Of a stretch of 5,986 nucleotides of DNA, positions 1,996 to 3,198 are shown piece by piece. Position numbers and translations under genes: made by a program. A model generated the notes under the pieces. The model searched no databases and was not told where the DNA came from. It saw only the letters and a program-made list of their open reading frames with translations. This DNA is from Candidatus Altarchaeum sp. (GTDB lineage: Archaea > Altiarchaeota > Altiarchaeia > Altiarchaeales > Altiarchaeaceae). Location: contig JAGTWP010000049.1 in NCBI GenBank assembly GCA_018260755.1, positions 4,065-10,050 on the forward strand. Reading direction: 5' to 3'. Within the stretch, counting starts at the first letter, position 1. Every line of letters begins with the position of its first letter.

Positions 1996-2082
1996 ATGAA
2001 ACCAGCAATTAAACGAGCAAAACAACCAAAGCCAACAACCTACAAAGATGCAGGAGTAGATATTAACCCGCCTTTTTCTTAA
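1996..2082 (+). pseudogene. Truncated duplicate of the purM 5' end (28 codons then stop)
   Basis: An ATG at 1996 opens a 28-residue frame beginning MKPAIKRAKQPKPTTYKDAG and ending in GVDINPPFS followed by TAA at 2080-2082. It repeats the N-terminus of the full purM starting at 2152 (MKPTTKQPKPTTYKDAGVDI), except for a 9-bp in-frame length difference and changes in the first codons. Bases 2018-2064 are identical to 2165-2211. After residue 23 the sequence runs into an unrelated palindrome and stops, so no enzyme can be made. The two starts are in the same reading frame (156 bp apart), separated by TAA at 2080 and TGA at 2119. It may be a dead duplication remnant, or an upstream short ORF with a regulatory role; the sequence cannot separate these. 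Confidence 0.8.
2018..2064 (+). repeat. 47-bp perfect direct repeat (mate at 2165-2211)
   Basis: Bases 2018-2064 are identical to 2165-2211, an offset of 147 bp. The second copy is inside the real purM gene, codons 5-20. The perfect identity, next to diverged upstream codons, suggests recent duplication or gene conversion. The repeat is long enough to be a recombination or misassembly hot spot. Confidence 0.95.
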
Positions 2083-2097
2083 AAAGAAAAATGCGGG
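2067..2097. other. Strong hairpin (14-bp stem, one mismatch) over the stop of the purM duplicate
   Basis: CCCGC at 2067-2071 pairs with GCGGG at 2093-2097, followed by one C/T mismatch and then TTTTTCTT (2073-2080) pairing with AAGAAAAA (2084-2091), leaving a 3-nt loop at 2081-2083. The TAA stop of the truncated purM copy lies at the tip. The GC-rich base stands out in the surrounding AT-rich DNA. No T-run follows the stem on either strand, although the T5 in the left arm could act as an archaeal-type terminator on the plus strand. It could also be a palindromic repeat element inserted at the duplication junction. Confidence 0.75.
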
Positions 2098-2125
2098 CGA
2101 AAAAGAAAGGTAAATCTTTGAAAAA

Positions 2126-2132
2126 TTTATAA
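2126..2132 (+). promoter_or_regulatory. TATA box for purM
   Basis: TTTATAA inside AAAAATTTATAAC is centred 23-26 bp before the purM ATG at 2152. This predicts transcription starting at or within a few bases of the A of the ATG, meaning a leaderless mRNA, in line with the absence of a Shine-Dalgarno sequence. The promoter lies downstream of the truncated purM copy and hairpin, so the intact gene has its own promoter. Confidence 0.55.
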
Positions 2133-2151
2133 CTATAATAAATATGAAAGA

Positions 2152-3198
2152 ATGAAACCTACAACAAAACAACCAAAGCCAACAACCTACAAAGATGCAG
2201 GAGTAGATATTGACAAAAGACAGGAAGTAATGAAAAATTTTATAAATTTAATGAGTGCAACATTTAAATTTAGGGAGAAAAGAACTGGAAAGGTGCTTAT
2301 GGATGTGGGAAATTATGCAAATCTTATTGAATTTGGCGATTACGGAATTGCATTTAAAACAGATGGTGTCGGAACAAAAGTACTAATAGCACAGGAATTA
2401 GACAAATATGACACTGTTGGAATTGATATGCTCGCAATGAATGTTAACGATTTGATTTGTGTCGGGGCAGAACCGATTGCATTGGTTGATTACATTGCTT
2501 TGCAGTCCGTTAATGAGAAAATTTTAAACGGAATCGCAAAAGGAATTTACGAAGGTGCAAAACAGGCAAATGTAGCAATAATCGGAGGAGAGACGGCAAT
2601 AGTCCCGGATTTAATTAAAGGAATAAACGTTCAAAAGAAAATCGGTTTTGATTTGAGTGGAACCGCATTGGGAATTGTCAGGAAGGACAAAATTATAGAC
2701 GGAAGCAAAATTACATTTAATGATGTTATTATAGGATTTGACAGCAACGGAATTCACAGCAACGGACTAACATTGGCAAGAAAGGTTCTGCCGAAGAAAT
2801 TTTATTCCGAAATTTTAACACCTACAAAAATTTATGTTAAGGAAATTTTGGAAATAATAAACAGATATGAAATTCACGGACTTGCACACATAACAGGAGG
2901 AGGTTACAGGAACTTATTACGACTTACAAAATACGGATTTAAACTGGAAAATTTGCCTGATTTGAATGAACCACACACAAAAATTTTTGCTAAAATTCAG
3001 GAGTATGGCAATATAAGCGACGAAGAAATGTACAACACATTTAATATGGGAATTGGATTTTGTGTGATTGCGAATAAAAAAGACGCATCTGAAATTTTAA
3101 AAAATTACAATTGCAGAAAAATAGGCAAAGTGATTGCCGAACACAAAGTGTTGATAAAAACGAGTAATAAAAAGATTGAAATTTTAAAGGAAAAATAA
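2152..3198 (+). CDS. purM: Phosphoribosylformylglycinamidine cyclo-ligase (AIR synthetase)
   Basis: A 348-residue protein, the normal length for PurM. The enzyme converts FGAM plus ATP to aminoimidazole ribonucleotide (AIR), ADP and phosphate, the step that closes the imidazole ring in cytoplasmic purine synthesis. Seen, in order: YKDAGVDI (13-20), the ATP/substrate motif KTDGVGTK (69-76), MNVNDLICVGAEP (96-108), GGETA (145-149), SNGIHSNGLTLAR (198-210), HGLAHITGGG (242-251) and TFNMGIG (296-302), all characteristic of the PurM/PurL superfamily. The first 12 residues (MKPTTKQPKPTT) form a Lys/Thr/Pro-rich extension before the point where family members usually begin. The ATG at 2152 is supported by the TATA box about 26 bp upstream; an ATG at 2144 is out of frame. 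RPA follows 38 bp downstream on the same strand. No other purine gene is nearby. The 5' end is duplicated upstream. Confidence 0.97.
   Translation: MKPTTKQPKPTTYKDAGVDIDKRQEVMKNFINLMSATFKFREKRTGKVLMDVGNYANLIEFGDYGIAFKTDGVGTKVLIAQELDKYDTVGIDMLAMNVNDLICVGAEPIALVDYIALQSVNEKILNGIAKGIYEGAKQANVAIIGGETAIVPDLIKGINVQKKIGFDLSGTALGIVRKDKIIDGSKITFNDVIIGFDSNGIHSNGLTLARKVLPKKFYSEILTPTKIYVKEILEIINRYEIHGLAHITGGGYRNLLRLTKYGFKLENLPDLNEPHTKIFAKIQEYGNISDEEMYNTFNMGIGFCVIANKKDASEILKNYNCRKIGKVIAEHKVLIKTSNKKIEILKEK

Follow-up and report, generated by a model that had tools for sequence, protein, structure and literature searches.

A short hairpin element with long target duplication as the probable origin of a repeated purM start in Candidatus Altarchaeum

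The window analysed here is a stretch of 5,986 nucleotides of Candidatus Altarchaeum sp. in which the first codons of purM occur twice, once in a short truncated frame and once in the intact gene (Table 1). The original prediction offered an insertion scar, a recent partial duplication, a regulatory upstream frame or a misassembly of strain variants as the source of this pattern, and which of them applies is the question raised by the locus. We propose that the repeat is very probably the footprint of a short non-autonomous mobile element inserted with a long target duplication. The sample comprised four species of Candidatus Altarchaeum/Altiarchaeum: G000, the window's own genome, which was read as stretches covering about 1.2 of 1.32 Mb, and the same-genus relatives G001, G002 and G003, whose PurM proteins are 92%, 86% and 89% identical to that of the window, respectively.

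The repeat and the hairpin before purM

A repeat search in the window recovered the pair 2018-2067 and 2165-2214 with 98% identity over 50 bp and a spacing of 147, including the predicted 47 bp of perfect identity (2018-2064 versus 2165-2211). Local alignment of one flank to the other gave a score of 94, whereas shuffled sequences reached 28 at most, indicating that the repeat is not due to chance. The duplication extends beyond the 47 identical bp to about 73 bp, as positions 1159-1231 of the G002 sequence align to both copies. Other features described from the letters were found as well: the two ATGs lie in the same frame 156 bp apart, with a stop codon between them; the 28-codon frame ends at the hairpin, its stop being a TAA within it; and the 9-bp indel in the 5' codons is accompanied by substitutions through which 1996-2017 has diverged further. 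The 28-codon frame is probably a by-product of the truncated copy.

The informative part of the locus is the spacer at 2067-2147. The segment 2121-2151, between the element and purM, aligns weakly to the region preceding 1996; it would either belong to the right-hand target duplication, in diverged form, or represent the 3' margin of the element. The element may influence purM expression, for example through the putative TATA-like TTTATAA. Two further repeats occur in the window, namely about six tandem copies of the 12-bp repeat TGTTCTTATTTT upstream of the small Zn-ribbon gene (1793-1876), and a direct repeat of 68 bp with 87% identity and a spacing of 270 bp in the coiled coil of the SMC/Rad50-like gene (2-69 and 272-339).

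Table 1. Coordinates of features in the window and of other loci discussed in the text
Feature	Location	Strand	Remark
Window	G000 contig 5, 4065-10050		Genes: SMC/Rad50-like ATPase (minus), small Zn-ribbon gene, purM, RPA-like protein, tRNA-Met, hydantoinase/oxoprolinase-like gene
Left (truncated) target-site duplication copy	1996..2066	+	purM start codon and first codons; identical to right copy over 2018-2064
28-codon open frame from truncated copy	1996..2082	+	Not present in G001-G003
Terminal hairpin of element	2067..2097	+	Pyrimidine-rich left arm CCCGCCTTTTTCTT (2067-2080), loop AAA, purine-rich right arm AAGAAAAATGCGGG (2084-2097)
Element right end CGAAAAAGAAAGGTAAATCTTTG	2098..2120	+	Matches family right end CGAAAARARAAAAAAGTAAACATTAG
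Segment between element and purM	2121..2151	+	TATA-like TTTATAA at 2126-2132, 26 bp before purM ATG
Right target-site duplication copy	2152..2214	+	Continuous with intact purM
purM (phosphoribosylformylglycinamidine cyclo-ligase)	2152..3198	+	Intact, 348 aa; Pfam AIRS and AIRS_C
Five G000 hairpin loci first examined	Window; C62; C29; C71; C42		purM; Zn-ribbon gene; gene on C29; TrkH-like gene; dnaJ
Duplication over 5' part of tRNA gene	G003 C70; G003 C88; G001 C182
Duplication over tRNA gene	G003 C139		Antisense
Duplication over ArgB-like gene end	G003 C100, C87
Duplication over rdgB	G003 C136		Antisense
Loci of other hairpin types, G000	L056 10218-10353 (C61); L073 10378-10620 (C78); L047 1808-2085 (C15)

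Copies of the hairpin element across the genus

All four sampled species carry a family of elements of about 55-120 bp with the left end GAACTTTTYTCTTTTAGAAAAARARAAA and the right end CACTCCGAAAARARAAAAAAGTAAACATTAG, the hairpin type of which is termed C-type. On the left, ACTTTTTTCTYTTTT agrees with the complement of RARAAAAAAGT at the right end; however, the left end forms a hairpin of its own, and on the right there are some 10 or more bases further out. The junctions between repeat and element are not always flush, with 0-11 extra bases on the left and a variable distance on the right, and the limits of the element can be placed only to within several bases on the left and less precisely on the right.

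Scanning 1.06 Mb of G000 for a pyrimidine/purine hairpin with a purine tract gave 8 matches, compared with none in the reversed sequence. All five C-type hairpins first examined in G000 showed the same order of truncated 5' copy, hairpin and intact gene, with flank alignment scores of 58 to 218 against shuffle maxima of 25-37. When the genus was searched, at the level of sequence only, with the right end and its reverse complement, copies were found in G001 and many in G003; the same-genus relatives bearing matches include Candidatus Altarchaeum sp. HURL_140 and Altiarchaeales archaeon A3. A second pattern yielded 25 matches in G000, G001 and G003 versus 0 for the reversed pattern, and a pattern for the left end brought in one copy from G002, which has a repeat of about 100 bp before an RNase J-like gene. 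In more distant members of the class the right-end pattern matched only at the chance level of the reversed control, and in viral contigs its exact form matched unrelated A-rich sequence only.

A uniform right-end scan, likewise confined to sequence, returned 34 matches, 28 of which were judged genuine by eye on the presence of both ends. Flanking direct repeats of 25-109 bp, well above shuffles, accompany 26 of the 34, some of these being tandem units of one locus and the repeat of L228 (34 bp, 224 bp away) being uncertain. The remaining eight consist of six that resemble chance matches and two real copies, L132 (nested) and L149 (near a contig end). Our count of about thirty copies in the four genomes includes L098, L108, L117, L152, L188, L231 and L244, found outside the uniform scan. 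Most copies are 55-120 bp long, they hold no ORF, and the aligned flanking repeats over the family measure 25-124 bp.

The window copy was compared with this family in two ways. A BLAST search of G000 with the region around the truncated copy returned two more matches; these are to hairpin spacer and not to purM, and both matched spacers again sit between two copies of the neighbouring gene's start; the match to the copy on G000 C62 has 80% identity over query 226-280 (E = 2.5e-5). A profile built without the window copy returned it at E = 0.025 in about 1.2 Mb, the best reversed-control match having E = 0.089; the former value would be far smaller if the search were confined to the spacer of about 100 bp, but that argument is post hoc. 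The assignment rests on the BLAST match to the C62 copy, the hairpin and the position between repeats, beside the profile value, and these identify the window copy as what appears to be a diverged member of the family.

Most of the duplications span the start of a protein gene, and as a rule one of the two copies preserves an intact gene; tRNA genes and other targets are listed in Table 1. The bias towards gene starts may reflect that an intact gene remains after duplication, or that insertion prefers promoters. Element and target duplication together also form tandem arrays with perfect or near-perfect units, as expected from recombination between the repeats; these occur in G003 at L238 (C70, 1200-1760; three 131-bp units), L245 (C53; two 147-bp units) and L234 (C139). 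Two other hairpin types, ATCGGTTTTTT...AAAAAACCGATGGCAAAAAA and CTAACTTTTCTTGG...AAGAAAAGTTAG, were seen between perfect direct repeats of gene starts of 38-94 bp. The A-type on C78 lies with its own 81-bp repeat at the start of rdgB, the same start as the C-type target on G003 C136, and the B-type lies on C15, both being between long repeats. Searches with the A-type found one dispersed relative, without repeats.

Empty sites, rival readings and mechanism

Comparison of the locus in the relatives revealed a single purM 5' end in each of G001, G002 and G003, the upstream copy being absent. The window copy is flanked by long direct repeats, and the empty site is present in G002. Aligned to G002 with its insertion, the window split into two pieces that share 73 bp of G002; after removal of the element and one copy, a single piece of 617 bp with 82.8% identity was obtained. 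Therefore, the purM insertion is derived, with a target of about 73 bp. Likewise, with the element and one copy of the repeat omitted, seven insertions in G001-G003 (L236, L146, L248, L244, L231, L188 and L152) gave near-full-length one-piece alignments to the uninterrupted G000 locus. Together with the window, these alignments indicate that the repeats are long target-site duplications. In addition, two insertions are common to two species, one at a Zn-ribbon gene (G000 C62 and G003 C87) and the other on G000 C29 and G001 C170. The family is mobile, duplicates long targets, faces empty sites in relatives and includes insertions shared by descent. At the shared old Zn-ribbon insertion (L057 12704-12884 on G000 C62; L148 about 1900-2060 on G003 C87), the two species agree in that the coding part of the truncated copy hardly differs from the intact gene, while the flanking noncoding DNA has diverged; gene conversion or selection might account for this near-identity.

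The suggestion that misassembly joined strain variants deserved attention. Exact 47-bp repeats stand across 18-N gaps in G000 (L053 12665-12779, L066 19311-19411, L107 about 9800-9900 and others, one of them inside the C71 locus), and they are a k-mer overlap artefact of that assembly which mimics duplications. The perfect purM repeat has this same length of 47 bp, so its identity was suspect and an independent test of misassembly was needed; the differing 5' ends of the two purM copies would also suit such a join. However, the purM spacer is unique in sequence and uninterrupted by any gap, and about thirty loci show the same arrangement; it occurs, with other repeat lengths, in three other genomes assembled separately, including HURL_140, whose contig titles state more than 2000-fold coverage. 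As the two shared insertions come from independent assemblies, misassembly becomes unlikely, and we give it hardly any weight at all. The predicted regulatory frame, with the truncated copy and hairpin acting as a leader that controls purM, draws on an open frame with its own ATG, a stable hairpin, the TATA-like box now lying between hairpin and purM, and the Zn-ribbon locus, where two species have kept the coding portion of the truncated copy nearly identical although the flanks diverged. Such a role specific to purM found no support in the single purM starts of the three relatives; the same element adjoins unrelated genes and tRNA genes, and the truncated Zn-ribbon copy of G003 carries a 1-bp deletion that breaks the frame, leaving a regulatory origin highly improbable.

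A duplication by replication or repair, in which an unstable hairpin causes polymerase slippage or template switching and leaves a partial tandem duplication with the hairpin at its junction, would require no transposase. It could also produce the repeats and the covered gene starts, and it agrees with the slightly ragged junctions, the perfect tandem arrays of element and repeat, and the failure to find a helper transposase at the loci examined. However, orthologous empty sites lack the element, and its sequence, including a right end that is conserved and non-palindromic, recurs at about thirty unrelated loci across four species. The element must therefore have moved, and the arrays are expected anyway through recombination between repeats, so that we consider replication or repair a quite unlikely origin, though less so than the two readings above. 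Recent partial duplication, as worded in the original prediction, fits the outcome but does not give its cause, whereas the insertion scar proved apt, the upstream copy being a target-site duplication from a small hairpin element.

Based on the insertion reading, we propose that, counted from a point just ahead of the purM start codon, the element would have entered about 70 bp further downstream, and that the target DNA in between would have been duplicated on both sides of it. The left copy would be cut off by the element, resulting in the 28-codon remnant, while the right copy would stay joined to the gene and keep purM intact. A transposase acting in trans might insert the element, with strand cuts about 45-125 bp apart followed by repair, and selection might mainly retain insertions in which the duplication makes the gene or tRNA whole again. 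The IS1634-type and DDE_Tnp_1 loci examined yielded no helper transposase with matching ends. It is conceivable, if somewhat unlikely, that the element is moved by an unrecognised enzyme or process of Altiarchaeota, unrelated to IS1634, which would regularly cut or copy the two target strands at points 45-125 bp from each other. Such a process would perhaps be guided by transcription or promoter opening, as most insertions cover the start of a gene or tRNA.

Comparison with known systems

Most transposable elements duplicate 2-14 bp of their target. The four related genomes provide about thirty minimal elements with mapped duplications and corresponding empty sites, a data set for asking how the length of the duplication is determined. 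At metabolic and tRNA genes the process results in truncated 5' gene copies and perhaps in new promoters, and gene callers and duplication scans could misread these. We found no paper describing such insertions in Altiarchaeota within an incomplete coverage of the literature. Similar to the hairpin family, the REP/RAYT palindromes are small dispersed hairpins; REP sequences are not known for long target duplications, whereas nearly every copy of the hairpin family has one.

IS1549 and IS1634, of the IS1634 family of the IS4 group, have direct repeats of 8 to 514 bp for which no mechanistic model was proposed, target repeats of 5-6 bp being otherwise usual in the IS1634 family (PMC2266710). The hairpin family resembles these two in its long and variable direct repeats at insertion, but they are full insertion sequences and it holds no ORF. 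IS1634-family transposases occur in G002 and G003, and the terminal repeats of the IS1634-type copies examined (CCCATATTTCCGACT; TTTTGTTGCCGTGT; TTATTACTCATCTTTCAAAGTTATT) do not match the ends of the hairpin family. Membership of the hairpin element in the IS1634 family is thus not supported by its putative ends, although the outcome is like that of IS1549 and IS1634. The only IS1634-type copy in an informative context is L177 (G003 C115, 327-2741), an element with two ORFs nested in a C-type element that has 66-bp flanking repeats. It was considered as an autonomous parent, being flanked by the element ends and the 66-bp repeats, and was rejected: its own ends CCCATATTTCCGACT and 6-bp repeat CTGTAC, which is of the size otherwise usual in the IS1634 family, lie within the C-type element, suggesting a passenger. 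The other IS1634 and DDE_Tnp_1 loci examined were without hairpin family ends.

Prokaryotic MITEs are shorter than 500 bp, AT-rich, multicopy and free of ORFs, with inverted-repeat ends and flanking direct repeats, and lie near gene boundaries (PMC10969869). Apart from the ends, the hairpin family shares these features, its copies being short, multicopy and non-coding, with target-site duplications and empty sites in relatives; its putative inverted repeat from end to end is imperfect, and ends in common with an autonomous insertion sequence were not matched among the IS1634-type and DDE_Tnp_1 loci examined. The window element, of about 55 bp, is in all likelihood MITE-like and non-autonomous. 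Its family differs from MITEs in the direct repeats, which measure about 45-125 bp compared with a few bases.
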